64,000 bases of DNA from Panax quinquefolius (taxonomy: Eukaryota > Streptophyta > Magnoliopsida > Apiales > Araliaceae): positions 45,437,409 through 45,501,408 of the forward strand of contig CM035151.1 of NCBI GenBank assembly GCA_020205615.1, in the 5' to 3' direction. The position numbers were made by a program, and so were the translations under genes. Below the pieces are notes generated by a model. That model ran no database searches, was not told the DNA's origin, and saw nothing but the letters and a program-made list of their open reading frames with translations. Below, one piece after another: positions 1,098 to 60,980 of the stretch (positions within the stretch are counted from its first letter, which is position 1; each line of letters starts with the position of its first letter).

Positions 1098-1943
1098 TGT
1101 CGACGTCGGGATTTTTAGTTTTCCATATCCGTTACTTGTTCTTTGGTGTTCTCATTTTAGGTTAGATTTGTTTGAAAAAATAAGTGAAAAAGGTCTGACA
1201 TGTATAATGTCGACGTTGGACTGTTAAGAGTCGCCGGTTAGTTTTTTAAATGGTTGTACCAAAACAACCGAGAAAAGGTTTGCACATTGACCCAGTGATG
1301 TGACACTACTAAACGGGTCGGTGAAATCGAGATTCATTAGGATTCGGGGACTTGATTATGCAGAGGGAAGGTGTTTGGCACCCTCCCCCCACCCCGACAT
1401 CCGTGTTACCACGGTGACCGCCTCTTTTCAAGAAACTATTATCTGAATATGTGTGTGTGGGGGTCAATGTGTTGTTTATTTGGAAGTGGTACGAGGCCCC
1501 GTTCGCACCTATATACACAGGGTTTGAATTTATGTAAAAATTCAATTTTAGCAAGATATGGCAGTGATGTTTTATAAAAGAGGTTTTTCAAACCCTGATG
1601 CTCAATAGTAATTGAGACTTTTTACACTTCCATTTTATTAAGTGCTCGGCTTGATTGATTTTATTTTTGAGATGCGAATCATCTATAAGAAAATAATGTA
1701 CAAAATAATGTCGATTTCCTCGTGGGTATGAAAACCATCTGAGGAAATTTAGACACCACAAAATAATTTAAAAGCTGCTTACATCTGAAAATGTCCATCA
1801 CGGGAACCGAATCTAGATCCAATAGGCTGAATCTGTGATCACATGATTCCTAGGCTCACATGATACCACAATTTACATGAAAGTAGTAAGCAGGTATATA
1901 TATATAAAAGCTGTAACTATATATATATATATATACAAACATG

Positions 1944-2211
1944 ATCAGCCACCACGAAGCACCTCCATGGGGGATCAGAAAATATAAACAAAGCTGAAAA
2001 AGCTATCAACCGCCACAGAGGAAACTCCAGGCAGGACAAAACATAAATAAAGTTATAAAAGCTATCAACTTTCACAGAGGAAACTCCAGGCGAGACGAAA
2101 TGTAAATAAAGCTGTAAAAGCGATCAACTGCCACGAAGTAAACTCCAAGCAGGACAAAACGTAAAGAAAGTCAGAAGCGATCAACCACCACGAAGTAAAC
2201 TCTGGTGGGGC

Positions 2212-2212
<1 letters not shown>
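1944..2212. repeat. ~60 bp tandem repeat in LTR
   Basis: About five imperfect copies contain the core gatcaaccaccacg, aaactcca and taaataaagctgtaaaagc. The array recurs at 32,640-32,895 in the 5' LTR and at 51,478-51,600 in the second element copy. Confidence 0.75.
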
Positions 2213-2214
<2 letters not shown>

Positions 2215-2271
<57 letters not shown>

Positions 2272-2339
2272 GCAATAATATAGGATGTAAAATCTGTGCT
2301 CATCGAACGCAGAGTTACGACAACGCTTAACATATATGA

Positions 2340-2402
<63 letters not shown>

Positions 2403-2453
2403 CGCGGGCATCAAGTCAGGCTCAATCGAGGCATAAATCGATAATGTTAGTCC

Positions 2454-2500
<47 letters not shown>
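2215..2500. repeat. three (TA)n arrays separated by related ~70 bp spacers
   Basis: TA arrays lie at about 2,216-2,268, 2,339-2,391 and 2,453-2,498. The spacers share motifs such as aaacgc, ggctcatcgaac and cgaggcataa. The same TA-spacer organisation is in the 5' LTR (32,896-33,687) and the third LTR (51,422-52,024). Open frames here are only Ile-Tyr runs. Confidence 0.85.
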
Positions 2501-2504
<4 letters not shown>

Positions 2505-3234
2505 AAATAAAACCACGGACCGAAGTTCGGGCAAACACACGCAACACGACTCTCAACGTGAAGAAGGATGTGTGCAAAGATGAAGAGAAAGGCTTTAAAG
2601 TGTGTGAGAAGGCTTACAGTGGGCTGCCAAAGAAGGCTTCTATATCTTTAAAGTGGATGAAACTCGGCTCCCGCTGGTACAAAAGTAGCTATATATGAGC
2701 TCACAAGTGTATAAAATGAGAAAGCACTTAGTATATTATAAGTACGGAGCAAATTTGACAGGGCTTCCTCGCCTCCTCTTTTTATTAAAATGACCACCCC
2801 AAGCCCTTTATTTATAGAGGGGGGAGCCGTAGGTGTACTTGCGTCCAGCCACAGGTGTACCTGAGGCTACCCGGGTTGGCCCGGGTTTCTTGGGTCGGGT
2901 CATCTCGTAGTACGTGTATGTAGGCACTACAATATCCGCTCGAACTTTCAGAATTGCAATCCGGGCATCCGACTGAGGTATATAGGACCTATTTCGGACC
3001 CCCGTTGTCCAGAGTTGTACAATGGCATGGGATTCGAGATTGTACAAAGTCATGAAGATGGGATGGTGCCCTTCGGTCTTCAAGCTTCTAATTCTATCCG
3101 TTACCCTACACAATAGTCACTCGGGATTGGTTTTCCTGGATTCTTGTGGGACATCGTGGTGTAGAAATGTATGTATGAGATGTTTAGACGACGTGATGTG
3201 GCCTTGAGTTGGCGAGATGACGACTTTGCCCCTC

Positions 3235-3720
3235 ACCGGAGTTATCGCCGGTTTGGGCTAGTAAAGCAGACGTTGCTCAGGGTTATCTCTAAGATTGGAC
3301 TGTTGCACGTGTTAAAGGTCCTCAGTATCATCTCTAAGGTGTACCTGTCCTCCCGATATTATCTCCGGGTATGGTCCTGAGTGCCTCGGTGTGAGTGCCG
3401 AGGTTAAAGCTGATTGCATGCATTTGAAACAAGCATTTCCGTGGTTATCGCCGGAACTGCACTCCTTGGGGTTATCTCCAAGGTTGATAGCTGTTATTCC
3501 CAGTGTTAGGACTGAGACTGGATTCCTCGGGGTTATCTCCGAGATTAATCGGTCTTCTCCGATGGAAAATCCAGTGTTGGAACTGCATGCCTTGGGGTTA
3601 TCTCTGAGGTTGGAACTGTTACTCCCGGTGTGTGCTCCGGGGTTGAGACTGAACTTTTGGTAGTATCCGGATTGGATGTGAGCTATCTTCCACGGTTATC
3701 TCTGAAAGATGAATCTGCAT
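3235..3720. repeat. array of covarying stem-loops in the 3' LTR
   Basis: Ten or more short inverted repeats are spaced about 40-70 bases apart, with a loop close to GGTTATCT (or ATCG). Examples are ACCGG/CCGGT at 3,235-3,252, CCTCGG/CCGAGG near 3,385-3,404, CCTTGG/CCAAGG near 3,464-3,483, CTCGG/CCGAG near 3,526-3,543 and CCCGG/CCGGG near 3,624. The stems differ between units yet stay self-complementary. In the element's transcript (minus strand) the loop would read AGATAACC. Confidence 0.8.
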
Positions 3721-3762
3721 TCCTGCAATGTTAATGACAGGTGTGCAGAAAAATTTTGAGTG

Positions 3763-5786
3763 TTCATGCAATGCAATGCATGGATAGGATAAAGAATCCT
3801 AGACACTTGAAAAATGCAACTTAATGCAAATGTATGATGCATGTGTTCGGGGTTGTTGCCCAATATGATGGGGATGATCGCCAAATCCTTATAACTTTTA
3901 CCGAGGATTGGCAACTATGACCTAATTAGATGTGTGATCCGAATCTGTTTGACGTTGACGCTGGGGATATCACCAAAGTCCTTAATCCCTGATACATAAT
4001 TGATTCTGAAGAGGTGCCTCTTATGTGTAAGAGATCTGTCGGGATAAAGTTTTGTCTATATTGAGGATGTGTATAACATATTCCATCGTCGATCCTCATT
4101 GGTGATGCTGACTTTTTCCTGGTTTGTATCGCTGGGATATGTCAATGTTTTGTTGGATTTATTGCCAACAACATATGCTATCAGGGTTGTTTGACCTTCG
4201 TTGACGTGTACTTCACCGATGTGTGCATTAACGAATGAAAACCATGTGGGGTAGATTGTCAAGGCTGCTTGACCTTCGTTGACGCGTGAATGGGCTGATA
4301 TGCGTTGTGACCCCCACCGGGGATCCGCTGGGGAATGTGAATACCACAGAACGCAATCATCGAACAACTTTCGATGCCTCGATGGGTTTACTTGCCATCG
4401 GCTGAAATACCGTCAAGGTTGCTTGACCTTCATTGATACATCAAGGGAAGATAACGAGTGGTGACCCCTAGCCGGGGAATGCATTTTAACCTTGCTGATG
4501 CGTGCTTCAACGACTGATATCATCGGATGGCTTCCGACGCTTCACTGGATTTACTTGTCAATGGTCATACTGATGTCAAGGCTGCTTGACCTTCGTTGAT
4601 ATGTGTGTCAACCGATGAAAATGCATTATAACCCCCGCCAGGGATCCGCTTTTGATATTGCGTTGTGACCCCCGCCGGGGATTTGATTCTCGAGCTTGCA
4701 TTGTGACCCCCGTTGGGGATTGTTAGAGAATTAGGGTGTCGACCTTGAATTGGCGGCATTGGACATGCGTAAGGTATTGCCGAGCGTGGCTGATAACATT
4801 TGAAATCATCGGTATAGTGTACCCTATGTTTGGGCGAATACCAATGAATGATGGACATATCCAAGGTTCAATCTGAGAAGACCAGGATTTTAAGCTATTC
4901 TGCTCAATCGCGTAGCGTTTTTATCCATGATTTGACCTTTTCAGTCTGTAAGAACTCCTTTCCAACTCGAATCGGGCCGAAGTAGGAGGGTGGGACCCAT
5001 ATGAGGTGCTTCTTGTACACTGCTTGATCGCGAGATGGACTGCGGCCAACCATGGATACTAATATCCTGCAGGTTGATTTCATAAGTCATTTTCAACTTG
5101 CGCTGCGAAGAAAAATCTGAGAGCTCTCCTTCAGATCTGCTTAGTTCGAGCAACTTTCTGCAAAAATTCTATCACCGTACAAGTGTTCTTCACTATCCTG
5201 GTAACGTATGCATATACTTTTTTCCAGTTTTTATCCGTTGGAAAATGACTTATCATATGAAATGCATCTAAACACATAGTAGTGATTATGTATGCTCCAA
5301 TGACTTGATAAAAAATATTCAACATAGTAAATGTTAGTATTAAACCATGCTGAACATAATGATGTGAAAAAATTTGACTTTTGAGACAGTCAAATTGACA
5401 CCTTTTTCTGCTATTTTTATCCTATTTGAGGCCCAATGAGCAAAAGGTAAAAAGGCAAAGTACTCCTAATATTGAGGTTAACCTTATGTATTGATGATTT
5501 TGATTTTTAATGCATATATTATGTATATGACTTTGGGCAGGTGTGCTACTGAATGGCCACCTAGTCATGCCTATGTACATGTGGATAGTCCGATTTACAA
5601 AGGGGACTATGGAAAAAAAATTCAAAACGTAGACATTTAATTAGTCATGCAATTTTAACTCCACTGTAGATGTATGTTAAAGTAATGCATGCATGCATGT
5701 AGTCATAAAATGCATTTTGAAAAGCTCCAAGTCACGAAATACCACACCCTTTCTGAGGTGATTTGGAGACTTATTGTCTAGATATT
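3763..5786. other. non-coding 3' region between 3' LTR and the antisense genes
   Basis: No coding frame is convincing. The region aligns with 53,299-55,055 of the second copy. It contains a second family of stem-loops (GTCAAG-loop-CTTGAC at 4,258-4,273, 4,412-4,427 and 4,575-4,590, each followed by cttc[ga]ttga) and five copies of a gacccccgccgggga motif between 4,309 and 4,722, itself a C4/G4 inverted repeat. The last ~400 bases (5,340-5,786) are the best conserved between copies and include cataaaatgcattt at 5,704, a possible TATA-like site for the antisense gene. Confidence 0.7.
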
Positions 5787-6083: not shown

Positions 6084-6164
6084 GTATAACGTTAGATCTT
6101 GATCTTCCTTCTTTCCTATTGATGAGGAGTAAAGGATTTTGATGTTGATCTGCATTTCATGCAG
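6084..6164 (+). other. intron 1 of the PMD gene
   Basis: It begins gtataacg after the codon GAG and ends ttcatgcag before GTT. It is phase 0 and 81 bases. The homologous intron in copy 2 is 55,352-55,429 with gtaaaagc and tgatgtag. Confidence 0.65.
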
Positions 6165-6815
6165 GTTCCCGGCTTCATACAGCCTCGAGGGAATTGGTTT
6201 ACCATACACTCCATGTACCAGGCTCTTCATCCTGACTATAGAGCAATTGTGCACGACTGGGGTTTGGGAGCATTCTTTTCCATCCTTCTCCGTCGTTGTC
6301 CCTGGGGTTATCTCAGGTCATTATTTGAGCGATGGTTTCATCAGACTCGGTCACTCCATCTGTTGGACTGTGAGGTGATGATGACGTTGATGGATTGGCG
6401 ATTTATCACAGGTATAGAGTTTGGAGGGGAGCCAGTGCCTTGCATGGAGAATATTACCCCTACTGCCATCAGATCTTTGTTAGGAGTTCCGGCGGAGGCA
6501 CTCAAAGGCGGGACTGTGCATATAGGTCCTTTGAGCGTGGATACTATGAGTGGGCTGTTGAGCGAGCCCATGCGTGATGATGTCAGAGTCAGGGATTGCA
6601 TTCTTCGGTGATTGTTTCTGATGATCATTAGAGGCTGCTTCATAGAAGATAACTCTTCTACGGTGTCATTCACTTTGGTCAGCGTTATGCGTCATGTGGA
6701 CCGTATTGGAGAGTATGATTGGGGTTTCTATACCTTTGCCTATTTCCTCAAGGGCATGCGTATGCGCTCACAGGGTTTGACTGAGGCTTGGTTAGGATTC
6801 TACCCCTTCCTGCTG

Positions 6816-6894
6816 GTGAGTATTTCTCTTGTCGTTTCCCATGTATAAGTTAAGAGTGATTATTGACCGCAGATGTATGCCTTTGTGTTGGCAG
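6816..6894 (+). other. intron 2 of the PMD gene
   Basis: Donor gtgagtat, acceptor gtgttggcag, 79 bases. Using this acceptor rather than the nearer accgcag at 6,872 joins FYPFLL directly to FWAYERL in phase, matching the family. Copy 2 has the same donor and a gtgttggaag acceptor at 56,160. Confidence 0.65.
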
Positions 6895-7742
6895 TTTTGG
6901 GCCTATGAGAGGCTTCTATGTCTATGCCCTGTGAGCATGTTAGGTTTAGATACATATCCACGAGGACGACGATGGCATCATTCCATACAGGCGGAGGTCC
7001 CTGTAGCTAAGAGTTTCACCCATTGTCGCCTGCAGCTGGAGTTGTTGACAGCTTATATCATCACATGGATTCCCTATTTTGGGGAACATTTGGCCATCGA
7101 TTTTGAGGATGGGTACCCGACTGGCGTCGAGTATGTGATCTCCACCCGGAGAGTTCCTCTCTTTACAGATGGAGGATGGGAGCTCTATTTAGGAGAGCGT
7201 GCTATTAGGAGCACCACATGGGAGATTCATATGCCGGTCTTGTCTCCTGTCAGGCGTCATTGGCCTATATCACAGTCACCCGTCATTGACATCCCATTGT
7301 TGGGGGTAGACGATTTTACATTATCATAGGGCCCCTACACTTAGGAGATATTGCAGCGTTGGTGGTTCCCTCGCACTATTGGAGCTTAGACCCGCGCCAC
7401 TTAGTTTATGGGGGATATGGTTCTAGGATCGTGATAATGACGGATTGGCTAACCTGTGTCCGAGATCTGACTCATGTGACACAGATTGACAGTTTGACCC
7501 AGCGGTTGGACCGGGCATATTTCTTTATCCAGCATTTGGGCAGAGATCTGGCAGAGGCAGATTCATTTGATCCTTCCAGCTCAGGCACTGGCCCCTCAGA
7601 TGACCCATTTTGTTTTGCCGATGCAGATCATCCTTTATATAGGCCAAACATCCCTGTTGATAGAGATCCAGTGACTCAGGAGGAGTTACATCAGGTGGAT
7701 AGGATTGATGATGTAGATATTGACACCATTGTCTTCTTCTGA

Positions 7743-8023
7743 TGTGAATTTTTGTTATATCTTTTGATAGGCCACTATTAGCTATTGGGTGGATGTGCCC
7801 CATTCTCGCTATATCTTTTGATAGACCTCTGTTAGTAGTAGGGCGTATGTGCCCCATTTCCCTGTATTTGTAGTTGTACAGAGATGATGTATTAGATGTT
7901 GATGTACTTAGGAATGTATGCATAGTTTTTTCATTCCCTATATCATATTGCCATCTATTATCTGTATTGCATGTATCATGTTATGCATATGTATGTATGT
8001 CCAGAGATATTCAGCATTGACCC
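7743..8023. other. spacer between PMD and DUF7745-like genes
   Basis: There is no coding frame. It contains a near-direct repeat of about 60 bases (ttgatag..ctattag..gtatgtgcccca, around 7,765-7,850). Copy 2 lacks this spacer and the gene ends on either side of it. Confidence 0.6.
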
Positions 8024-9811
8024 GTGGATGGTCTTATGACACGACCCGTACATATGTGTTCTTCGACAGTTAGCCGTATTAATCATACCCCACCATTATT
8101 GGTGGCATCGGGTATGCGATCATGGTATGATAGTATGTCACCATCAGATAGGGTGATCGTAGATCATTTGTTGAAGCATACTATGACCTTGTTGATGTTT
8201 CAGGTTCCCACAGGATTCGTGGATGGCATGCTAGAGCATTGGGTATCGAAGAGGCGGGTTTTCCGATTTGGGACCCAGGAGTTGACTCCTACCCTGGAGG
8301 AGTATGTATGGTTGACGATGCTGCCATTGGACAGACCTTGCATGCATATGGCTTTGGGGGACATGAGTCGACACTTCATGACCCTCTCTAGATTGAGGCG
8401 TAAGGTGGTGCAGGATGAGCTTACCTCTGGCCACGTTATATCCCAGCATTTTCTGTTTGACAGATTTGGCTCTGAGGATAGTTATACACGACATTCTGGG
8501 GATTTCACCAGACTGGTGGATCATTGGCGTCTAGCCAGGGTTGATGTACTGCTATTGTCCGTACTATCGTATGTCTATATGCCACGGTACATGGATGAGA
8601 TAGACATTGGAGTCATCATGGCAGTGAGAGCTCTTAGGGAGGGTCGTACCACCATTCCTATGATTATAGCAGAGACTACAGGTCACCTACATACAAATTG
8701 TATTTATCTCGACAGGAGAGAATTCTGAGCGACTTTCGGTTATGATGTACGTGTGGTTTATGTCACATTTGAAACTGATCGGCACTTTTAGACAGCATGG
8801 ATATTGTTTCACCCATGATATAGCCATGTCACACTCCTTTCAGTCATCGGAGTATACGGATGCCATGTCTTGGTCTATGTTCTTGGCGGATATCAGAGAT
8901 CCATTTGTCATATTGCCGTGCTCAGGGCTTAGCTCACCCTATAGCTTTATTACTCATGCTACGGACATGGATTATCTCCCTCTGGCTGGTTTGAGGGGTA
9001 TGACTACCTATCAACCGATGCCTGTGATGTCGCAGTTTTACCAGTTTCAGGATTTTCATCCTTTTGAGGGGGCGCTAGGTCAGCGTTTAGCTTCTCGCTA
9101 TCTCTCAGAAGAGGATCGATACCGTGTATACGCTTGTTGGGATAAGTGTGAGGTAGCGGATTTCTCTATTAGCCATTCGGGATGTTTGCCAGAGTATCCT
9201 GCATGGATAGAGACATAGATTTCATCGGCTGCGGCAGTATCCACAGTACCGGATAGTGATTCAGACGATGAGAGCCCATGGAGGACATTGATTCCCACAT
9301 CAAGGAGGAGCTACTTGCTGGGTTGCCAGCATTTCGTTTAGATTCTCCCAGTACCAGCACTGTCGTGATACAGTATTCGGTATAGTACTTCGAGCAGAGT
9401 CTTCATCTGATGACCTTCAAAAGAGACCAGGCTAGAGCCTTGATGTTGACTGCCCTTGATGGGAGAGACACGGCTCTGTAAGAGAGAGACGATGCATTAG
9501 CTAGCATAGACGTCGCTGTTTTCGAGCGAGATTAGGCTAGATCAACCAGAGATGCAGTGATAGTTGAGCGGGATAGTGTCGTATCTGCCCGGGATGTAGA
9601 CGTCACAGATAGTACTGCAGTGAGGTCCCTTACCACTGGCATGATCGCAGAGATGAGCGCTTACATTGATGAGCATATGGTCACCATGCAGATGGTTGCA
9701 GATCTGTTGGGTCGTGTGGATACCCTTGTACAGGAGACTACAGCTTCAACTCCTTCTTCTGAGAGGGATGCCATGTTGGGCTTGTTGGCTCGCATATATC
9801 CTGAGTTGTAG
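8024..9811 (+). pseudogene. antisense DUF7745-like gene with coiled-coil tail, copy 1, broken
   Basis: The first 234 codons (8,024-8,728) are open. FGTQELTPTLEEYVWL, then RVDVLLLSVLSYVYMP, IDIGVIMAVRALREG and IPMIIAETTGHL follow in the order I know from the plant DUF7745 family (function unknown, abundant in retroelement-rich genomes). One extra base near 8,725 moves the frame to 8,742-9,218 (YVWFMSHLKLIGTF onward), where copy 2 is continuous. Past a TAG at 9,216 the C-terminal part is made of ERDxA-type heptads (about 9,420-9,620) ending ARIYPEL at 9,811, a likely coiled coil. Further stops at 9,479 and 9,532. The start could also be a later Met near 8,114 (MRSWYDSMSP), which is the region shared with copy 2. 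Confidence 0.65.
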
Positions 9812-11565: not shown

Positions 11566-14500
11566 TTTAATTACCCGATATTTTGCATATAAAATAAATA
11601 AGAAATTTTGCATATAATTTTTTTATTATTATTATTATTTTTAATAATGAGAATATGTGTCAAGTAATGTGTATGATAAATGCAAATATATTTATTACCT
11701 ATAAATAATTTTAGAATTATTAATCACTACAAATTATATTCTTATAGTAATTAATTTTTGTGTGCGAAATGTTTTTATTAATTATTTTCCATGAAAACAT
11801 GATTTTATATTATTTAAATAATATATGAAATGATTATTGGAATTATTATAATTACTATTTTATTATATGAATTTTAGTTCAGATTGTTAATTTAATTATT
11901 TTAACTTAATTAATAATGTTATATATGAAAGATAATCGAGATATGGAATTCAAACCCTAATTTTGGATTTTGAGCTACGAATGAGAATAATAATATTATA
12001 TAAAATATAATATTAGTTTTCGAGTGTTATGAATATCTGAGTTCAACACATGTAGTATTGGTGTTATAGGATTTATATTGTGTATTATTAGATTTAATGT
12101 TAATTAGAGAAAATCCTAATTAATATTTGAAAATCCTAATTTAAAATTAGAAACCTAATTTTGCTAATTAGGAACCCTAATTGCAAATTTTAGAAACTCA
12201 AATTACTATTTTAGTAAATTATAATGATAATTAAGAAACCCTAATTGTTAATTTGGAAACCCTAATGATAATTAAGGAACCCTAATTATTTAAACCCTAG
12301 TTTTCTATTAAAAACCCTAATTTCTATTAATAACCATAATTTCTATTAAAAACCTTAATTTAATTAGTGTGTTTAAAATTAAAATTTTATTACACTTTAA
12401 TTTTTAATTGTCCAAACCCTAGCAATTATTTGGGAAACTTTAAGATGTAAAATCTAGTGATTAAACCCTAGATTCAAGCACCTTGGACAAGAATACCCTT
12501 GAGATTATAAGCAAAATTACCAAAGTGCCCTTTTGTCCCATTAGTTGAATTATTGCTAGCCAAATCCTTGCAAAATCTGCAGCCACCCTACCCTAGACCT
12601 ACCTATGAGCCTACAACCTATAACACATCACATGATCATCCATCCCATACATTGCATACATGATTTGTTAGATTTAAGAGAGAGAAAATCCTCATTTTGG
12701 CCTAATTTGTTCACAAATACCTAGCCATACTCTCTCAAGACCAAAGCCACGAAATTGTAGTGTTAGATCAGTCATAAATCAAGCCCCACGAACACCAACC
12801 TCAAATCAGAAGCATAGAAATTAGAATTGGAGCATAAGAGGTAAACCCTAATCTAGAAAGTTGACTTTTGATCTTATGTTAGATGTAAATTTTTTTGTGT
12901 TAAATATGTTGTATAGGGTGTTAATCAATGAGATGTCAAACCCATAACATCTAGAGGCTCAGATTTTTGAAATCTATAATTTAAACCCATAGATCTCTAT
13001 CTGTTATATGTTTTTATGTTTTGAAACTTTGTACTTGTACTCTGTCCGGAGATCTTGAATTTGCAACTTGAATCATGCTCATATCTGTTGTAGATTAAAA
13101 GTTATTTATGGTCAAAGTGGGTTGACCGACATTAACTGGTTGTTCTTGAAGCCCAGAATTTTCCCAGAAAGTCTGACAGGCATTTTGATAGCCTCTGATC
13201 TTGCTCCTTGTAATTCTTTAGGCCATGTTGTTGTTATAGACATGTAGTTTGACACGAATACTACATCTTAAAACCCATAGAACAACCAAATCTGTTACAC
13301 AATCAAAGATATGGGTGGTCAAACTAGGGTTGACCACCAACCTTATGAGTTTCTAGGAAAAACCCAGATTCATGAAGAACAGTTTCTCTGGCATAGTTTG
13401 ACCAAATTATATCTTCTTGTTGTGTTGTTGTTTTAGTGATGTTTTGTAATAGATCTATTTAGTTACATGTGGTCTACAACCTGGAACTTTTAGATCACAA
13501 AAATATTGCACGATCATCATGTAGTGGGAGCTCAAAAGTGAACAGTCGAACTGTTCTTCATTTCTGGGCAACCCCGGAATTGAAGAACAGCTCTGACATT
13601 GTTTTGGTTAGCTTAGATCTTTCATTTGATGCATGATATGACCTTAATTGTTAGTGTATTTTGTAGTATTACATTAGTTCTACAAATTATGATCATTATC
13701 TAGTCCAGAAACACCACGATCTGATATGAAATCTTAGTCAAAGTACCCCACTCGAAATCTGACATGAAAATCTGGGTTTGAGCGAAGAACACCATTAGCA
13801 ACAGTTTTGTCGCCTAATTTACCTTTAGCGACAGTTTAATTTTAAATTAATTATTTTAATTAAATAAATAGAGAAAATTAGTTTTAATTATTAAAAAATA
13901 CAAAATTAATTACTAAAGATTATTTTAAAGTCTAAAAATTAGTTTTTAATTATATTAAGTATATTTCATAAACATTTAATATTTTTGGGATATAAAAGGT
14001 ATTTAATTTATTTAAGTATAATATTAAATTAATTATTTAAAATAATTTTAATACATGAAAAATCATTTAAAAAATATGTTATGATATAAAAAGATATTTT
14101 AAGTTATTTTCTATAATTTTTAATATTTTGTGATGATTTTCATTATTAATTAGATATTAATGATGATTAAGTTATTTAATAAAGATATTAAATAAATGAT
14201 GGAAAATAGAATTAATGATTTAAAATTTATATAAAAATGATTTAGAGATTATAAAATATTTTAAGTTATAAAATATAACTTTTGATATATTGTCATAAAA
14301 ATATTAATATTTTAATATTAAGGATATTAAATTTATTTAATAATTATATTAAATAAAGTAAGGTAAAAATAATTTTAATATTAGAAAAATCATTTTAAAT
14401 GAAAATTAAGTGTTTAAAGATATTTTAATTTATAAAATATAACTTTTAATATTTAAAGGATAATTTCATTAATAATTTAATCTTAATGATATTTATTTAA

Positions 14501-16346
14501 CATTAATGATATTAAATTTATTTAATAATTATATTAGATAAATAGTTTTAAAATGGTTTTAACAAATTTATAAATCATTTAAAAGGATATAAATGAATTA
14601 AAAATATTTTAGTTATAATTAATGACTTTTAATATTTGGATAAATAGTACATTAATACTTAAATATTAATGGTGATTATTTAAAATGATTTTAAATGTTT
14701 TCAAAAATCATTTAAGGGTAATATTAATACGTTAAAAATATTTTGAGTTTTTACACATAACGCTAATATTTTGGCAATGATTTCATTAATAGTTTAATAT
14801 TAATGATAATAGAATTAGTTAATATTTAAATCATTTAATAATAATTTAAGTGTTTAAAAATTCATGATAAAGAACAATAATTATTTAAAAATTATTATAA
14901 GGCTATGAAAAAGAATATGACTGATATTTAAAATATCTAAACGACCATTGAACTACATGATAGAGTCTTAGACTCGATAATTACCGATCATGTAGTCGCT
15001 TAAGACAATCGTATTTCGAAAATGGATCTGAACTTAGATATTTTGATTGTATTAATGATTGTTTGTGATTCAATGATTGTGGGATATGTGTGATAATATG
15101 ATTAGGTTATGTGCTGACTGCAATTAGCAGTACTATGTTATATGATATATTTTTCTAATTGAACGAATGATCTTATTACTGATAGGTCGCTGTATAAAAG
15201 ATTAATCTAAGTTGCGTTATTGTAAGTAGCAGCTTAGGCAAGTATCCTACTCTTGCATTTACTTTGTGCAATGGACATGAGTAAGAAAGCTTCAGAATTA
15301 TATTATTATTGTTCCAGATTGTTAACTCTATTATTATTGATTATGTATCCAATCTTTGTAATCATACAAGTTCTTACATTATCCAATCATTGTATTATTT
15401 TATAATTCAGATATTTATTTATTACTTCATTAATTAAGATATAGGGTTGAATAAGTGTCCCCACTTGGATAACCATTGTATTTAATCATATGTTGATACA
15501 TTCTTATTGATTTCGAGTATGTATACGTTGACTTAAAAGTCGTCTAAGCTATTTGATTCAGCTAGACATAAAAATATTGTTGAGCAAGATAGAAATTTAT
15601 TGTATCTGACCAGATTATTTTGGTTCGGATTCCTGACTAAGTATGAACATCCCAAACCTGGGAAAACTTTTGTGCACCTAAGGTGGATAGAGTGAATGAT
15701 AATATCATTCTTGTATGTAGAATTGATCAATACAGGGCATAACGAGCTGATCACCCCCCGTGCCCGTAAGTTATGACGTTTTATAGATGAATTTCTGTTT
15801 AACCTTTTCGAAAATAAAAAACAATGTTCATAGTATGTTGAATGATCTCCAGTTATAGTTAATACATAGTTTCAAAAATTTCATACAGAAGTGATATGTT
15901 GTTATTATTGGTTCAGCTTACTTCACAACTGTTGATTCGTTGTAGAAGAGTCTTTCAAAGAAAATATTTAATTCTTTCAGCTAATATATATTGTTGTTAT
16001 TACTTGTTGGGCAATCAAATGCTCATTCTTGCTTTAAATTTAAATGCTTTTAGCTAAGTATGAACAACCGTAAGGTTCAAAAAAGAAACAAGGGAAAGGA
16101 AAGTCGCATTGAATGAGATTTATAATATTACGTATAATGATTATAGTTTATTAAGATAATGATACTTATTATTTATGATGTAATCAATGTTTAAAGGTCT
16201 CGTACCTGGGATTTAGACTTTGATATATGTAAATTAAGTTTGATTTTTATATTATTGTTATTATTATTAGTATTATTCCGCTCATAGAAATGGTATCGTG
16301 AAGCAGCGAGTTCGGGTTTCAAGTACCCGGATTTAGGGGTGTCACA
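11566..16346 (+). mobile_element. 5' LTR of the chromovirus derivative
   Basis: It starts tttaattacccgatattttg and ends ggggtgtcaca just before the PBS. It contains a telo-box-rich tract (12,110-12,470), a GCGACAgttttGTCGC inverted repeat near 13,808, a ~1.1 kb extremely AT-rich stretch (13,830-14,930) and a more complex 3' part. No protein-coding frame is credible inside it. Confidence 0.88.
12110..12475. repeat. degenerate telomere-like motifs (AAACCCTAA) in LTR
   Basis: Around fifteen copies of aaccctaa or aaaccctag are scattered with AT-rich spacers rather than in head-to-tail register. The related minus-strand LTR has the same tract as ttagggttt at 38,050-38,660 and 49,415-50,110. Confidence 0.7.
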
Positions 16347-16349
16347 GGT

Positions 16350-16361
16350 TGGTATCAAAGC
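16350..16361 (+). other. primer binding site, tRNA-iMet type
   Basis: TGGTATCAAAGC follows the LTR end (16,346) by three bases and matches the plant iMet PBS at 11 of 12 positions. Confidence 0.8.
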
Positions 16362-16566
16362 TTTAGGGTTAGAAACCTTAGGTGGGATCGACCTTAGGCT
16401 ATAACCTTAGAACAGGGGGAAACGTTGAAAATACAAATAACTCATATAGAGTTTAAAAGGAGATGAGTTGAATAAATTCATCATTAAACAAAATAAAAGA
16501 TAACTCTTATAAAACTATTGTTTACTGTGTGTATACTATTTACTAATCAAGATAAGTTGTGTGTAG

Positions 16567-16992
16567 ATGTCTAGTGGAAAAGATTTAGGACACTCTCTGA
16601 TCGTAAAGAAGGAGCCGATATCAAAGCCAAAAGCTGAAATAGAGGCTCATAGTGCACACAACCTTGATGAGGTGGTGGTATTGGAAAACGTAGTACCAGA
16701 TCCAAAAATGGTAAAACTAACAGATAGTGATTCAGACACTAAAATTAGAGCTGATCAAGCATCAACGGAAGTACAGAATCTGAAGAACAAGGTTTCTTCT
16801 CTAGAAAAGTTGTGGGAAATAGAAAAGTTACTAAATAACCAATTGCGAAAGGTGTTAATAGAAACTATGGAAGAACAAGATAAGCTTAAAATCCAAATTG
16901 ATCAAATGGGAGCCGGAATCAACAAATCGTATGCAGCTCCGAGCAAGAAAGGGAAAAGAAAGATGAAAGACCGTGACTTAGGAAATAAGTAG
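16567..16992 (+). CDS. small pre-gag ORF with coiled coil, 141 aa, unknown function
   Basis: An intact frame between PBS and gag. It opens MSSGKDLGHSLIVKKEP, continues with KPKAEIEAHSAHNLDEVVVLE, has an acidic patch (DSDSDTKI), a predicted coiled coil around residues 68-115 (VQNLKNKVSSLEKLWEIEKLL) and a very basic end (KKGKRKMKD, possible nuclear signal). The related element has a homologous start in the same place at 40,870-40,688. Two elements sharing it upstream of gag argues that it is a real element gene. Chromoviruses are not usually described with such an ORF; Ogre elements do have an ORF1 before gag, but I see no similarity I could claim. Being open in an otherwise decayed element is notable. 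Confidence 0.6.
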   Translation: MSSGKDLGHSLIVKKEPISKPKAEIEAHSAHNLDEVVVLENVVPDPKMVKLTDSDSDTKIRADQASTEVQNLKNKVSSLEKLWEIEKLLNNQLRKVLIETMEEQDKLKIQIDQMGAGINKSYAAPSKKGKRKMKDRDLGNK

Positions 16993-17262
16993 GATTAGTA
17001 GTTGATTATGTATGTTTGATAATGTACGGGTGTAATTTAATATTCTCAAACTTTTGTATAAGTTATTATAGTAATTCTCGACTTTTGTGGTCACAAAGGG
17101 ATAGCAGTATATGTTATGTTATGTAAAGTACTTTGAATTGATGAATACGAATCTATGTTTCATTAATGGAATAAGTTTTGTATAAAACTTCGCGTTATAT
17201 GTTAAACTTATACAATAAGGTTTAGAATGTAAGTTAAATTTATGATTTTATGTAATCAGATA

Positions 17263-17861
17263 ATGCCGCCAAGACGACAAACATGAAATCAAAGGGCAGA
17301 GGAATCTGTCAACAACGCTGAGGGACAATAGTAAGACCCAATGTAAAACTTTGCAAACATGGTTGCTCAGGCTATGCATCACGAAATACAAGCCGCAGGG
17401 AACCGACCAGACAATCGCTTGGCAAACTTCAAAGACTTCAAGGCAGTAGGACCACCAGAATTCAAGGGATCAGTTGACCCTATAGAAGCCCATACATGGG
17501 TTAACGAGATAGAAAAGGCGTTCATAGTTACTAGGGTAGATGAGGGGCAAAAGACCTCTTTTACGACCTATATGATGAAAGGAGAGGCGAACTTTTGGGG
17601 GGAAGCAAATCAAGCGAGGGCAGGAGAAGGAGTAGTTACTTGGGCTAGGTTTAAGACTTTGTTTTTCGAAAACTACCTCTCAACTAGCATGCAGGCTAGG
17701 ATGGAGGTAAAATTTCTAGAGTTAAAGTAGGAGAACATGACTATTGCGGAGTATGCCACAAAGTTTAATGAGTTGGCTAGGTTCGCTCGGCATCAAGTTG
17801 ATACGAAGGCTAGGAAGGCAAGAAGGTTCGAGCTGGGATTAAAACCCTGGCTCTACAACAA
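17263..17861 (+). pseudogene. gag: gag fragment of the chromovirus derivative
   Basis: ATG at 17,263 (MPPRRQT) is followed by an in-frame TGA where the related gag (40,138, minus) has the same stop, then further stops; 17,359-17,730 is open. The capsid region (NFKDFKAVGPPEFKGSVDPI, EANFWGEANQARAGEG, then FELGLKPW) is the retrotransposon gag domain of the Del/Tekay type. A TAG at 17,728 replaces an expected Gln. The frame is cut at 17,861, where sequence jumps into the middle of the 3' LTR. No zinc knuckle, protease or pol remains. Confidence 0.85.
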
Positions 17862-20800
17862 GAATTATTGCTAGCCAAATCCTTGCAAAATCTGCAGACA
17901 CCCTACCCTAGACCTACTTATGAGCCTACAATCTATAACACGTCACATGATCAGCCATCCCATACATTGCATACATGATTTATTAGATTTAAGAGAGAGA
18001 AACTACTCATTTTGGCCTAATTTGTTCACAAATACCTAGCCATACTCTCTCAAGACCAAACCCACGAAATTGTAGTGTTAGATCAGTCACAAATCAAGCC
18101 CCACGAACACCAACCTCAAATCAGAAGCATAGAAATCAGAATTGGAGCATAAGAGGTAAACCCTAATCTAGAAAGTTGACTTTTGATCTTATGTTAGATG
18201 TAAATTTTTTTGTGTTAAATATGTTATATAGGGTGTTAATCAATGATCTGGGTTGCTAGATGTTAAACCCATAACATCTAGAGGCTCAAATTTGATGATT
18301 TTCGAAATCTGGAATTTTTGAAAATAAGGGTCTTACAGTGAATGTCAGGTCCCATAGATCTCGATCTGTTATGTGTTTTTGTGTTTTGAAACTTTCTACT
18401 TGTACTCTGTCCGGAGATCTTGAATCAGGTTCATATCTGTTGTAGATTAAAAGTTATTTAAGGTCAAAGTGGGTTGACCGGCATTTACTGGTTGTTCTTA
18501 AAGCCCAAAATTTGCCCAAAAAGTCTGACAGGCATTTTCATGGCCTCTGATCTTGCTCCTTGTAATTCTTTAGGCCATGTTGTTGTTATAGACTTGTAGT
18601 TTGACACGAATACTACATCTTAAAACCCATAGAACAACCAAATCTGTTACATGATCGAAGATATGGGTGGTCAAACTAGGGTTGACCACCAGCCTTATGA
18701 GTTTCTGGGAAAAACCCAAATTCATTAAGAACAGTTTCTCTGGCATAGTTTGACCAGGTTATATCTTCTTGTTGTGTTGTTGTTTTAGTGATGTTTTGTA
18801 ATAGATCTATTTAGTTACATGTGGTCTACAACCTAGAACTTTTAGATAACAAAAATGTTGCACGGTCATCATGTAGTGGGAGCTCAAAAGTGAACAGTCG
18901 AACTGTTCTTCATTTCTGGGCAAACCTAGAAAAGAAGAACAGCTCTGACAATGTTTTGGTTAGCTTAGATCTTTCATTTGATGCATAATATGACCTTAAT
19001 TCTTAGTGTATCTTGTAGTATTACATTAGTTCTACAAACTATGATCATTATTTAGTCCAGAAACACCACAATCTGATATGAAATCTTAGTTAAAGTATCC
19101 CACTCGAAATCTGACATGAAAATCTAGGTTTGAGCGAAGGACACCATTAGCGACAGTTTTGTCGCCTAATGTATCTTTAGCGACAGTTTAATTTCTAAAT
19201 TAATTATTTTAATTAAATAAATAGAGAAAATTAGTTTTAATTATTAAAAAATACAAAATAAATTACTAAAAATTATTTTAAAGTCTGAAAATTAGTTTTT
19301 AATTATATTAAGTATATTTCATAAATATTTAATATTTTTGGGATATAAAAGGTATTTAATTTATTTAAGTATAATGTTAAATAAATTATTTAAAAATAAT
19401 TTTAACACATGAAAAATCATTTAAAAATATGTTATGATATCAAAAGATATTTTAAGTTATTTTCTATAATTTTAATATTTTGTGATGATTTTCATTATTA
19501 ATTAGATATTAGTGATGATTAAGTTATTTAATAAAGATATTAAATAAATGATGGAAAATAGAATTAATGATTTAAAATTTATATAAAATGATTTAGAGAT
19601 TATAAAATATTTTAAGTTATAAAATATAACTTTTGATATTTTGTCATGAAAATATTAATATTTTAATATTAAGGATATTAGATTTATTTAATAATTATAT
19701 TAAATAAAGTAAGGTAAAAATGATTTTAATATTAGAAAAATCATTTTAAATGAAATAAAGTGTTTTAAGATATTTTAAGTTATAAAATATAACTTTTAAT
19801 ATTTAAAGAATAATTTCATTAATAATTTAATCTTAATGATATTTATTTAACATTAATGATATTAAATTTATTTAATAATTATATTAAATAAATAGTTTTA
19901 AAATGGTTTTAATAATTTAAAATAATTTAAAAGGGATATAAATGAATTAAAATATTTTAAGTTATAATTAATGACTTTTAATATTTGATAAATAGTACAT
20001 TAATACTTAAATATTAATGGTGATTATTTAAAAATGATTTTAAATGTTTTCAAAAATCATTTAAGGGTAATATTAATACGTTAAAAATATTTTGAGCTAT
20101 TATACATAACGCTAATATTTTGGCTATGGTTTCATTAATAGTTTAATATTAATTAAATATTAATGATAATAGAATTAGTTAATATTTAAATCATTTAATA
20201 ATGATTTCAAAGGTGTTTGAAAATTCATGATAAAGTATAATAATTATTTAAAAATTATTATAAGGCTATGAAAATAATATGATCGATATTTAAAATATCT
20301 AAACGACCATATCGAACTACATGATAGAGTCTTAGACTCGATAATTACTTGATAAAGTCGCTTTTGATAATCGCGTATTTCGTAAATTGATCCGAACTTA
20401 GATATTTCGAATTGTATTAATGATTGTTTGTGATTCAATGATTGTGGGATATGTGTGACAATATGATTAGGTTATGTGTTTCGTACGCAATTAGCGCGAT
20501 TACTATGTGATATGATATATTATTCTAATTGAACGAATGATCTTATTACTTGATAGGTCGTTGTATAAAAGATTAATCTAAGTCATGCGTTGTAGTTAGA
20601 AATTGACTCGGCAAGTATCCTACTTTTGTATTTACTTTATCTGATGGACATGAGTAAGAAAGTTTCGTAATTATATTATTATTGTGCTGCATTGTTAACT
20701 CTATTATTATTGATTATTTATCCGGTTTTATATTCATACAGTTCTTACATTATCCAATCATTGTATTATTATATAATTGGGATATTTATTATGTTCGTTA

Positions 20801-21715
20801 ATTCAGTATATAGGTTGCATAAGTGTCCCCACTTGGATAACCATTGTATTTAATCATATGTTGATACATACTTATTGATTTCGAGTATGTATACATTGAC
20901 TTAAAAGCCGTCTAAGCTATTTAATTCAGCTAGACATAAAAATATTGTTGAGCAAGATAGAACTTTATTGTATCCAACCAGATTGTTTTGGTTTAGATTC
21001 CCGACTAAGTATGAACATCCCGAACCTGGGAAAACTTTTGTGCACCTAAGGTGGATAGGGTGAACGATAATATTGTTCTTATATGTAGTATTGATCAATA
21101 CAGGGCATAACAGGCTGATCACCCCTCGTGCCCGTAAGTTATGATGATTTACAGATGAATTTATGTTTAACCTTTTCAAAATAGAAAACAATGTTCATAG
21201 TATGTTGAATGATCTCCAATTATAGTCATTACGTAGTTTCAAAAATTTCATATAGAAGTGATATGTTGTTATTATTGGTTCAGCTTACTTCACAACTATT
21301 GATTCGTTGTAGAATTGTTTTTCAAAGAAAACATTTAATTCTTTCAGCTAATATATATTGTTGTTATTACTTATTGGGCAATCAAATGCTCATTCTTGCT
21401 TTAAATTTAAAAGTTTTTCAGCTAAGTATGAACAACCAGAAGGTTCAGGCAAGAACAAGGGGAAAGGAAAGCTGTTCGAATGTGATTTATAATATTCTGT
21501 GTAACAGTTATAGTTTGTTAAGATAATGATACTTATTATCTATGATGTAATGAATGTTTAAAGGTCTCGTACCTGGGATTTAGACTTTGATATATGTAAA
21601 TTAAGTTTGATATTTATATTATATTATTATTATTATTAGTATTAATCCACTCATAGAAATGGCATCGTGAAGCACCCAGTCCGGGTTTCAAGTACCCGAA
21701 TTTTGGGGCGTCACA
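17862..21715 (+). mobile_element. 3' LTR of the chromovirus derivative, 5' truncated
   Basis: It aligns with 12,547-16,346 of the 5' LTR and ends ggggcgtcaca at 21,715. The first ~980 bases of the LTR are lost together with pol in one deletion, whose junction is at gaattattg. Confidence 0.88.
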
Positions 21716-21720
21716 GACAC
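21716..21720. repeat. target site duplication GACAC (right copy)
   Basis: It pairs with 11,561-11,565 and is followed by the integrase sequence aatcacctctggttgtcc. Confidence 0.9.
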
Positions 21721-22234: not shown

Positions 22235-22815
22235 CTAAGTCGGGCTCGCCTCAGCGGGTGTAGATCCATCTCGTAGGTATTCCTTGATATGTTGATACCA
22301 AGGATGCTGGATGGGAGATAGCTTATCCGATACTTCTCCAATGTAATTCCCATAGGCTGGGGCTTTGTGCAGGGAAATTGTTACGCTTGGCAAGTGTCCT
22401 TTGTCTGATATGCGAATTAAGGAGGCCAAAGTTGCTAATGCGTCTGCAAAGTCATTCTTATTACGAGAAATGTGTAAAAAGGAGATTTCTTCGAACTCCA
22501 AAACCATATGTAAAACTTGTCGATGGTAAGGCAGCAAATGTTGTTCTTTGGTTTGATAGATTCCGGTGGATTGTCTGATTATCAACTCTGAATCTCCAAA
22601 GACAGTTAACCGCCTGATGCCCATTGAACGGGAAAGTTTTAGCCCCATGAGACAGCCTTCATACTCAGCATGGTCTTTGTTGGTTCTCGACAAACCGCAA
22701 TTTAACAAGAACGGATATCGCTTCCCCCATACCGGATACTAGAACTACTCCAGCTCCAGCACCTTCCATATTAATAGCTCTATCGAAATACATCTTCCAT
22801 ACTTGGCGTGTATCG
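22235..22815 (-). pseudogene. pol: second (archaeal-type) RNase H of Tat-like element copy 1
   Basis: Domain marks in order are KMYFDRAINMEGAGAGVVLV (first Asp), AEYEGCLMGLKLSRSMGIRR (Glu), LTVFGDSELIIRQ (Asp) and NKNDFADALATLASL (last Asp). Plant Tat elements are known for this additional RNase H after the ordinary one. A frameshift near 22,680 separates the first block from the rest. A spacer leading to integrase (APAYGNYIGEVSDKL) ends at 22,235. Confidence 0.85.
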
Positions 22816-23369: not shown

Positions 23370-24185
23370 TCATAGCTTGAAGATTGGCTCACAGGTTGCT
23401 GTGAGTTGAGAGATAAACCTGCTAATGAAGTTGATTCTCCCAAAAAATCCCCGTATTTCCTTCTCTGTCTGAGGAATAGGCATTTTTGCGATGGCCTGGA
23501 TTTTTGTAGGATCCAACTCAATCCCTTTTTGGCTTACTAGAAATCCTAGCAACTTGCCTGATTTAACGCCAAAGGCGCACTTGGCTGGATTCAACTTCAA
23601 GTTGTACTTATGCAACCTGTTGAATAGCTTATTGAGATGGTCTAAGTGGTCTTCCTCCTTCCGGGATTCAACAATGATGTCATCCACGTAGATCTCGATC
23701 TCTTTGTGCATTAAGTCGTGGAAGAGAGCCATCATAGCTCGCTGATAGGTGGCTCTGGCATTAATGAGGCCGAATGACAATCGTCTATAACAAAAGGTTC
23801 CCCAAGGCGTGATGAAAGCAGCTTTCTCACGATCTTCCTCAGCAACCATGATTTGATGGTACCCCGCAAAACAATTAGCAAAGGAGTACATGAAGTATTG
23901 AGCAGTATTGTCAATGAGAATGTGGATAAAGGGTACGGGAAAGATATCTTTAAGGCACGCTTTGTTCAAGTCCCGATAATCCACGCAGACTCCCACCTTT
24001 CCTCCAGGTTTAGGCATGGGAACAATGTTGGATATCCACTCAGGATATGTGGACACCATGATGATGCCCGCTTGAAATTGTTTCATAATTTCTTCCTTTA
24101 CCTTTAAACTCAACTCAGGTTTTAATCACCTGAGCTTTTGTTTGACTGGCCTGAATCCCTCTTTAATGGGAAGGCGATGAAGTAT
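23370..24185 (-). pseudogene. pol: reverse transcriptase of Tat-like element copy 1
   Basis: The frame 24,113-23,370 is open for 247 codons. It shows STYPEWISNIVPMPKPGGK, VDYRDLNKAC, then SFANCFAGYHQI, GTFCYRRLSFGLINA, EIYVDDIIVES and GFLVSQKGIELDPTKIQAI. The YVDD pair is intact, but the first catalytic Asp (expected in SFxDxFxGY) is Asn here, so the enzyme would be inactive. Upstream, GFRPVKQKLR is followed by a TGA at 24,128-24,126 where Arg is usual. Confidence 0.92.
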
Positions 24186-31789: not shown

Positions 31790-31812
31790 GGAGTCCCCAG
31801 CAGAGTCACCAA
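31790..31812 (-). other. primer binding site of Tat-like element
   Basis: The minus strand reads TTGGTGACTCTGCTGGGGAC and onward, starting one base inside the LTR end at 31,814. I recall this long TGGCGACTCTGCTGGGGA-type PBS from Tat/Ogre elements (tRNA-Arg type); one base differs here. Confidence 0.75.
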
Positions 31813-32892
31813 CTGTCGACGTCGGGATTTTTAGTAGTCCCTTTTCCGTTACTTGTCTTTGATGTTCTCATTTTAGGTGAGATTTGTTTGAAAAAATAAG
31901 TGAAAAAGGTCCGACATGTATAATGTCGACGATGGACTGTTAAGAGTCGCCAGTTGGTTTTTTAAATGGTTGTACCAACACAACCAAGAAAAGTTTTGCA
32001 CATTGACCCAGTGATGTGACACTGCTAAACAGGTCGGTGAAATCGAGATTCATTAGGGTCCGGGGACTTGATTATGCGGAGGGAAGGTGTTAGGCACCCC
32101 CCCCCCCAACATCTGTGTTACCAAGGTGACCGCCTCTTTTCAAGAAACTATTATATGAATGTGTGTGTGTGTGGGTCAATGTGATGTTTATTTGGAAGTG
32201 GTACGAGGCCTCGTCCACACCTATATACACAGGGTTTAAATTTATGTAAAAATTAAATTTTAGCAAGATATGTCAGTGATGTTTTATAAAAGAGGTTTTT
32301 CAAACCCTGATGCTCAATAGTAATTGAGACCATTTACACTTCCATTTTATTAAGTGCTCGGCTTGATTGATTTTATTTTCGTGATGCAAAGCATCACTAA
32401 GAAAATAATGTACAAAATAATGTCGATTTCCTCGTGGGTATGAAAACCATCTGAGGAATTTCAGACACCGCAGAATAATTTACAAGTTGCTTACAGCTGA
32501 AAATATCCATCACGAGAACCGAATCTAGATCCAATAGGCTGAATTTGTGATCACATGATTCCTAGGCTCACATGATACCACAATTTACATGAAAGTAGTA
32601 AGCAGGTATATATATAAAAGCAGTAAATATATATATACAAACATGATCAGCCACCACGAAACACCTCCATGGGGGATCAGAAAATATAAACAAAGCTGTA
32701 AAAGCTATCAACCACCACGGAGGAAACTCCAGGCGGGACGAAACGTAAATAAAGTTGTAAAAGCTATCAACCGTCACGGAGGAAACTCCAAAGTGGACGA
32801 AATATAAATAAAGTCAGAAAAGTGATCAATCGCCACGTAAATACACTCCAGTGAGGATGAAAAATGTAAAGAAAGCGAAAAGCGATCGACCA

Positions 32893-32895
<3 letters not shown>

Positions 32896-32956
<61 letters not shown>

Positions 32957-33011
32957 CGAGTAAACACTTCGGATGTAAAATATAAGCTCATCGAATAAAG
33001 TCCGACACACG

Positions 33012-33048
<37 letters not shown>

Positions 33049-33099
33049 GTAGTAAACGCCTCGCATCAAGTCTAGGCTCATCAACAACGTCGACACAGC

Positions 33100-33145
<46 letters not shown>

Positions 33146-33499
33146 AAATCCGGGGCCTTGATTGGAGTAAAAGACGGACAAATTTTTTTTTTTTGCTTTT
33201 TTGCTTTCTTTTTTTAAAACAACTAAAAAAAATTAATATTTTATGGAACTGAAATTTTTTCATAATACAATGTTTTGGGGGTGATTTGGATACCTATACC
33301 AAAAAATGATGGTATAGTCTACACAGACTGTACATACATGGTTTGTTATACGTACCCAAATCACGCCCAAAACATTGTATTATGAAAAAAAATTCAATTC
33401 CATAAAATATTAAATATTTTTTTTAGTTGTTTTAAACAAAAAAAGTAAAAAAAAAAAAGTTCGGACGGGATAAAATCTAGGTGTCCTGATTGAACTGGA

Positions 33500-33566
<67 letters not shown>

Positions 33567-33625
33567 TAAATAAACGCCCAAACCAAAGTTCAGGCTCAAT
33601 CGAGGCATAACTCGATAATATTAGT

Positions 33626-33687: not shown

Positions 33688-33688
<1 letters not shown>

Positions 33689-34920: not shown

Positions 34921-34981
34921 GATGAATCTGCATTCCTGCAATGTCAGTGACAGGTGTGCAGAAAAATTTCGATTGTCTACA

Positions 34982-34986
34982 ACGGT
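34982..34986. repeat. target site duplication ACGGT (right copy)
   Basis: It pairs with 1,093-1,097. Confidence 0.9.
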
Positions 34987-41092: not shown

Positions 41093-41095
41093 TGA

Positions 41096-60971: not shown

Positions 60972-60980
60972 TATAGCCAG

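Follow-up and report, generated by a model that had tools for sequence, protein, structure and literature searches.

In a 64,000-nucleotide stretch of Panax quinquefolius DNA (hereafter the window) we identify two arrays of short inverted repeats in a Tat-clade LTR retrotransposon. We tentatively read both arrays as regulatory DNA dyads, i.e. sites for dimeric proteins placed between the divergent transcription units of the element. This reading draws on the conservation of the arms, spacers whose letters vary at constant length, the scarcity of wobble pairs, the lack of a strand preference and the location between divergent genes. It would make the two arrays one regulatory DNA region of ~1.5 kb, flanked by the U3 promoter and an antisense gene, in which DNA-binding dimers would recognise the symmetric arms and the spacer would do no more than set their distance. 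Proteins so bound might switch the two genes on or shield them from silencing.

Element A spans positions 1098-34981 and is flanked on both sides by the 5-bp target site duplication ACGGT (1093-1097 and 34982-34986). Self-BLAST, sequence and this duplication place its 3' LTR at 1098-3767 (minus strand; the right end is approximate, and a small deletion has removed the polypurine-tract side) and its 5' LTR, of ~3.17 kb with TG...CA ends, at 31814-34981 (minus strand). A second element, B, whose LTR similarity begins near 51.9 kb, extends beyond the window. The coding domains lie on the minus strand: 1) the reverse transcriptase at 23370-24125 in A (PF00078, E=2.9e-26) and 62107-62871 in B (PF00078, E=2.6e-28); 2) an RNase H-like domain at 22235-22738 in A (PF13456, reverse transcriptase-like, E=3.3e-19); 3) the integrase at 60006-60980 in B (PF00665, E=1.6e-4, and PF17921, E=1.8e-4, both under the curated cut-offs). 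Both elements therefore run from right to left, which reverses the direction that an earlier note on this DNA had assigned. Read from the sequence, a polypurine-tract candidate, AAAGAGGGGTATC, adjoins the LTR start in B (53281-53293, minus strand), and a primer-binding-site candidate, TGGTGACTCTGCTGGGGA, lies just inside the 5' LTR of A (31794-31811, minus strand). Given that the element reads on the minus strand, the first array (array 1) falls in U3, upstream of a TATA-like box, and in the element RNA it would sit near the 3' end only. A location in the R/U5 leader, taken from TATA-like words, was dropped when the reverse transcriptase and integrase were found on the minus strand.

The inverted repeats noted earlier in three LTRs proved to be real. 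They comprise 11, 11 and 13 units at 3235-3706 in the 3' LTR of A, 34447-34919 in its 5' LTR and 52750-53221 in the LTR of B, where the units are partly 33-bp periodic; the dyads are of 5-7 bp with 8-nt spacers. The unit list was curated by hand from a motif scan (38 rows, some of them chance) and holds two units with other loops in each A copy. Perfect stems of at least 5 bp with loops of 3-11 number 7, 8 and 3 in the three copies, whereas 300 shuffles of each average 2.8, 3.0 and 3.0; by this count the decayed B copy is at the chance level. With wobble allowed, stems of at least 6 bp barely exceed the shuffles on the plus strand (9 versus 8.3, 10 versus 8.9 and 12 versus 9.0), and on the minus strand the excess is seen in A only (7 versus 3.3 in both A copies, 4 versus 3.7 in B). 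Permuting the right arms lowers the number of Watson-Crick pairs from 53 to 37.3 of 66 in the 3235 copy, from 52 to 39.8 of 66 in the 34447 copy and from 58 to 43.4 of 78 in the 52750 copy (p<=0.0004 each). When the units are pooled (35, of which 30 are distinct), 88.7% of the cells are paired as against 76.9% upon shuffling, and the covariation score is 0.606 as against 0.344, neither being reached in any of 500 shuffles; sliding the partner reduces the score to at most 0.280. The two measures least swayed by relatedness show no excess in these pooled units, namely pairs changed on both sides (4 versus 3.6 shuffled; 298 of 500) and further pair types (10 versus 9.0; 116 of 500).

The clearest mark of array 1 is the length of its spacer. 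Units with at least five Watson-Crick pairs and a spacer of 8 average 3.98 per copy over 41 A-type copies and 4.17 over 54 B-type copies, about ten times as often as those with other spacer lengths (0.02-0.95 per copy; means of 0.41 and 0.37); this count left out copies covering less than 60% of the query and the window's own L001 and L002. Some A units seemingly keep a stem with another loop length, e.g. TCCCA-gtgt-TGGGA at 34711, and a 6-nt loop is found near 3660 in the A majority sequence. Seven stem types recur: ACCGG/CCGGT, CTCAG/CTGAG, CCCGG/CCGGG, CTCGG/CCGAG, TCCGG/CCGGA, TCCAG/CTGGA and CTTGG/CCAAG. All 35 of their pairs match, and of the 5040 permutations of the arms the actual one alone achieves this, a result that is no strict probability for types that were listed by hand and are related by duplication. 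The prospect that the stems would reduce to a few unit types, which the earlier note had counted against selection, is thus partly borne out, there being about seven types. Array 1 of B is itself a diverged tandem repeat of ~33 bp. In our preferred reading the half-site would mostly be C-Y-G-R-N with an 8-bp gap, tandem duplication would have built the array and its few unit types, and the dyads would be kept in active lineages as cis-regulatory sites for both transcription units; template switching (PMC8794818) is a possible origin of new matched types. We also observe that a minus-strand open frame of 125-133 codons crosses each array (52774-53175, 3312-3695 and 34329-34706), and that over the B array it reads as a diverged repeat of ~11 residues. 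As the distance between units in A is in several cases not divisible by three, this peptide repeat was set aside as probably chance.

Searches of the 3.57-Gb genome with the A and B arrays returned 9,470 and 6,775 candidates, of which 40 were scored in each case, and those with the neighbouring internal region returned 6,889 and 5,147; these counts are first-look matches, and 104 loci were extracted. The main comparison rests on 73 copies, made up of 33 A-type (with the two window duplicates L001 and L002 dropped) and 40 B-type, and the two types differ from each other by ~0.30. All 75 stem positions of B (15 units with five positions each) have a Watson-Crick pair as their commonest state, some of these pairs being carried by just 17-18 of the 40 copies. 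In A, where 11 of the 15 units could be compared (u8, u10, u13 and u15 were omitted), the same holds for 54 of 55 positions; only the last unit departs from it, at its position 4. Across these units A and B share their commonest letter at 107 of 110 arm positions, as opposed to 174 of 230 in the linkers (p=7e-8 versus stem) and 66 of 88 in the loops (p=2e-6 versus stem). Between subfamilies, then, the constraint rests on the arms. The constant loop of the earlier note does not hold at this level: TGTGAGTG, TGTGTGCT and TATCATCT all occur, and the loops differ between subfamilies as the linkers do. Wobble pairs are few among the commonest states of the array 1 units. Some stem positions nonetheless show wobble often, as does position 4 of u6, where 13 of 30 A copies have C-G and 12 have T.G.

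Within subfamilies the pattern is a different one. At non-CpG C/G positions the deviation in stem, loop and linker is 0.083, 0.034 and 0.086 in A and 0.120, 0.098 and 0.168 in B, so that the loops are less variable than the linkers, and at A/T positions it is 0.013, 0.034 and 0.031 in A and 0.044, 0.044 and 0.083 in B. We read this variation, in which the loops are about as quiet as the stems, as mostly post-insertion mutation. A separate observation concerns the right arms, where C>T exceeds G>A (0.171 versus 0.108 in B, 0.117 versus 0.078 in A); the two are nearly equal in the linkers (0.117 versus 0.119 in B, 0.074 versus 0.068 in A). The excess is a strand-asymmetric mutation pattern inside the dyads.

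That both sides of the stems change together, as had been reported from the window, is true in one respect: within units the arms match. Between LTRs the changes are mostly one-sided decay. For the double-change, tree and alternative-state counts we excluded L001 and L002, the window's own copies. At stem positions 1-5 there is one fixed compensated difference between A and B, CCTTGG/CCAAGG versus CCTCGG/CCGAGG, located at position 3 of u7, where T-A is found in 32 copies (commonest in A) and C-G in 30 (commonest in B). At all other positions among these, alternative Watson-Crick states are found in 1-4 copies each and are nearly all transitions. Compensated changes at orthologous pairs show no clear excess over independence, with 10 double changes versus 13.0 expected in A (9 of the 10 still paired) and 81 versus 67.1 in B (53 still paired), the modest surplus in B being one to which shared descent contributes. 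Such covariation largely needs no selection, because two transitions turn C-G/G-C into T-A/A-T. Much of the covariation in the window is accordingly transition decay or difference between unit types, and at the level of copies it carries little meaning. Single changes to G.T outnumber those to A.C (121 versus 84 in A, 299 versus 216 in B). On a tree built from the non-stem columns, changes from a pair to G.T versus A.C number 56 versus 54 on internal branches, where no strand preference is seen (at low power, and with parallel CpG decay looking internal), and 319 versus 231 on terminal branches. The terminal excess looks like mutation bias, and the surplus of G.T, which might have been taken as a sign of plus-strand RNA, was rejected as such, being confined to terminal branches with the internal ones balanced. 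Double Watson-Crick switches fall twice on internal branches and 29 times on terminal ones. Decayed transposon copies can thus show covariation from double transitions alone, a point of caution for similar analyses, and the comparison of subfamilies is the better test.

A second dyad array (array 2), absent from the earlier note, lies just inside the element, on the internal side of the LTR junction. It extends over 3746-4760 in A, with dyads of the kind GTCAAG-N4-CTTGAC at 4258, 4412 and 4575, and over 53296-54030 in B, with dyads at 53414, 53676, 53767, 53829, 53929 and elsewhere. Its units include a GTCARG-N4-CYTGAC type and a type with an 8-nt loop, with loops ranging over 3-8 nt, and GTCAAG-N4-CTTGAC would be one class of site in the dyad reading. 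This class resembles an inverted pair of W-box cores. In alignments that omitted L001 and segments of less than 600 bases, group-level dyads of at least 6 bp number 12 for the 26 copies of A (1,024 columns) and 10 for the 21 copies of B (738 columns), and six are common to both. The window's own array 2 copies hold 8 dyads versus 1.3 in shuffles (A) and 4 versus 1.0 (B); ten non-array regions give ratios of 1.0-2.6, with z up to 5.0 in the part of the LTR rich in AT runs. Between A and B the stems are identical at 72 of 74 letters and the rest at 338 of 451, a difference inflated by the choice of dyads as paired in both, and the two differing stem letters form one compensated pair. Changes to G.T and A.C are balanced (56 versus 59, 71 versus 67). 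TTGAC cores per copy stand at 9.3 versus 3.1 shuffled in A and 4.8 versus 2.3 in B, the stricter TTGACY is barely raised (2.9 versus 1.5, 1.7 versus 1.3), and TTGAC is also raised in the control plant mobile domain (PMD) ORF (11 versus 5.7).

The two arrays are placed between two divergent transcription units, the U3 promoter of the element and an antisense accessory gene. On the element side a TATA-like box, which reads TTATTTATAGAGG on the plus strand at 2808-2820 and would be the minus-strand promoter box of the element, lies ~415 bp from array 1, has counterparts at 34020 and 52327, and recurs with at most one mismatch at 28 of 30 loci, two of the 30 being the window's own copies. On the plus strand the TATA-like GTATATAGGACC at 2978-2989 (counterparts at 34190 and 52497; at most one mismatch at 23 of 30 loci) points at array 1 and the antisense gene, which this TATATAAG-like word might serve, as might its two counterparts. 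The gene itself is represented on the plus strand of A by plant mobile domain-like pieces at 6126-7326 (6126-6608 and 6820-7326; PF10536, E=0.0032 and 2.4e-5, the best with 24.1 bits against a curated cut-off of 34.9) and DUF7745-like pieces at 8021-9215 (8021-8725 and 8670-9215; PF24924, E=1.8e-5 and 7.7e-4, with 24.5 bits against a curated cut-off of 26), and in B by a DUF7745-like piece at 57329-57730 (plus strand; PF24924, E=0.004, under the curated cut-off). Mismatches between A and B at codon positions 1/2/3 show a third-position excess in all four antisense pieces compared (25/25/49, 30/25/46, 51/26/75 and 41/35/55), on account of which the gene appears to have been kept by selection. 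Pol pieces show it clearly in two of three cases (32/21/45 and 22/16/59), the third giving 25/8/21 without such an excess.

The foremost alternative to DNA dyads takes the units as selected hairpins in single-stranded nucleic acid, in which pairing matters and the loops are free; they might form in either of two RNAs, that of the element (3' untranslated region) or the antisense mRNA (5' leader), or else near the polypurine tract in DNA that is single-stranded during reverse transcription. We regard it as a serious possibility but on balance unlikely. A dimer tolerant of degenerate sites needs no matched arms, yet the seven stem types match throughout, and the compensated differences between A and B, at u7 in array 1 and once in array 2, likewise count for hairpins and against DNA dyads. 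Also at odds with DNA dyads are arms that within subfamilies are not slower than the loops, the wobble frequent at some stem positions and the A units that seemingly keep a stem with another loop length. The loops of 3-8 nt in array 2 also suit hairpins. Folding of whole copies as RNA (copies starting at 3225, 34437 and 52740) is equivocal and points both ways: in element sense (minus strand) each A copy outdoes all 100 shuffles (z -4.1 and -3.6), but the B copy does not stand out (z +0.2; more precisely 0.16), and on the plus strand all three are modest (z -2.0, -2.4 and -1.8). Rfam covariance models run against window positions 3000-5000 gave no match at E<=1. Moreover, the commonest pairs differ between A and B at just 2 of 55 positions and the linkers at 24%, which in our judgement is tighter than pairing alone would suggest; wobble pairs are scarce, and strand asymmetry is absent from the internal branches, at the low power given above. 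The selected fold of the earlier note is retained in part: a selected dyad, with arms conserved between subfamilies and seven matching types, is upheld, while its reading as an RNA fold or as protein-bound loops is weakened because between subfamilies the loops evolve like linkers, double changes are without clear excess and G.T and A.C are balanced on internal branches. It is because the matching of the arms, the compensated differences and the quiet loops within subfamilies count against DNA that we advance the double-stranded reading no more than tentatively beside hairpins.

A further possibility is that mutation alone is at work, with fold-back template switching, in reverse transcription or replication, copying one arm onto the other, along with tandem duplication of a few unit types, and with no function for the result; we consider this decidedly unlikely. 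PMC8794818 reports that hairpins arise and are maintained through template switching; their likeness to the units described here lies in arms kept complementary, and the ~33-bp tandem repeat underlying array 1 of B fits with duplication. However, unbiased copying between arms should not slow the arms, yet they have changed far less than the linkers between subfamilies, which we infer the process alone does not predict. The lack of an excess of double changes in A, their modest surplus in B and the concentration of double Watson-Crick switches on terminal branches also speak against it.

The double-stranded DNA reading could take a more specific form, in which the dyads would be recognition sites of the element's own antisense plant-mobile-domain/DUF7745-like protein, serving an anti-silencing or autoregulatory self-recognition of ~25 symmetric sites between two divergent genes. 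By analogy with VANC this can be entertained, albeit as a doubtful proposal. VANDAL elements are DNA transposons. Their VANC-bound tandem motif arrays, reported as targets of an anti-silencing protein encoded by the element (PMC5735166), make VANDAL/VANC the nearest functional parallel known to us; in both cases tandem repetition has multiplied short motifs in noncoding regions of a plant transposon. They differ in that a VANDAL motif such as YAGTATTAY recurs in a single orientation, and PMC5735166 contains no instance of 'palindrom', 'inverted' or 'stem'; the antisense ORF here has PMD/DUF7745-like matches. Should the dyads indeed bind proteins, a conserved and densely packed regulatory array would lie beside an antisense gene in a family with thousands of first-look candidates, and the role of Tat-clade accessory proteins would become directly testable, beginning with whether they bind their own U3.

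Still less probable is that the variety of stems arose without constraint from a single ancestral palindrome, CTCGG/CCGAG, which decayed through CpG changes and other transitions. CTTGG/CCAAG and CTCAG/CTGAG are indeed double-transition products of it, the alternative states apart from u7 position 3 are rare and nearly all transitions, and neither of the relatedness-robust measures rises above shuffles. Such decay should leave half-changed pairs, yet the commonest pairs are Watson-Crick almost throughout both subfamilies; shuffled arms fall short of the observed pairing, and stem position 5 has three states including a transversion. As the whole story, CpG decay was hence rejected: it explains the variation at the level of copies but fails at that of groups. 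Comparably improbable is that the 8-nt core AGATAACC is the site, bound by a GATA/I-box factor with the arms as mere company: AGATAA is frequent in the window arrays (6.0 as the mean of two A copies and 9.0 in B versus 0.4 and 0.6 shuffled) and C/G positions in loops are less variable than those in linkers within subfamilies, but 8 of the 15 B units have a commonest loop without the TTATCT core, perfect arms in A are found around loops TGTGAGTG or TGTGTGTT, and we discarded the proposal on the finding that the loops are no better conserved than linkers between subfamilies.

Plant LTR retrotransposons are known to carry enhancer repeats in U3, e.g. the box repeats of Tnt1, which are repeated direct motifs upstream of the TATA box. 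Array 1 is like these in consisting of short repeated cis elements upstream of a TATA box, but its ~15 units are symmetric, fall into about seven types and have arms that match. Among the matches listed for such dyads, covered by title and abstract opening and with subscription journals mostly outside their scope, we found no description.

The element fits the Tat clade. It resembles Tat Ogre/Retand elements in the order of reverse transcriptase, RNase H-like domain (PF13456) and integrase, the 5-bp target site duplication and a long region between pol and the 3' LTR with an antisense ORF. The reverse transcriptase precedes the integrase on the minus strand, as in the clade (by PF00078 in both elements and, below the cut-offs, PF00665/PF17921 in B), and the TG...CA ends and the ACGGT duplication are present, these being general to LTR retrotransposons. 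The PF13456 domain of A lies between the reverse transcriptase and the site where homology with B would put the integrase, and may be either the additional RNase H (aRH) that the clade has between RH and integrase or the first RH. TRP28 (PF04195), the domain of the antisense ORF in the Retand lineage, gave no match at E<=0.01 in seven plus-strand pieces of A and B, which are broken ORF fragments. According to PMC6317226, 57% of Ogre elements have an extra ORF with the plant mobile domain, and PMC11963269 describes, for the region from pol to the 3' LTR of Retand, antisense ORFs as well as tandem arrays, the latter being frequent. The LTRs in the latter survey measure 315-1,194 bp as against ~3.2 kb here, and its main text has no occurrence of 'hairpin', 'stem' or 'inverted', while 'palindrom' occurs twice, in the reference list. 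On its plant mobile domain match, itself below the cut-off, the element is perhaps closer to Ogre than to Retand.

The window contains several other repeats. A nested repeat-flanked insertion occupies about 12547-21716, with two repeats of ~3.8 kb that are 91% alike and partly related to 40693-44822 in inverse orientation. Each LTR copy of A (1979-2202 and 32646-32895) has a 59-bp tandem repeat followed by long runs of AT dinucleotides, and two related stretches at 37394-37558 and 46652-46737 contain 14-bp tandem repeats of the type GTACTATTCACGNN.
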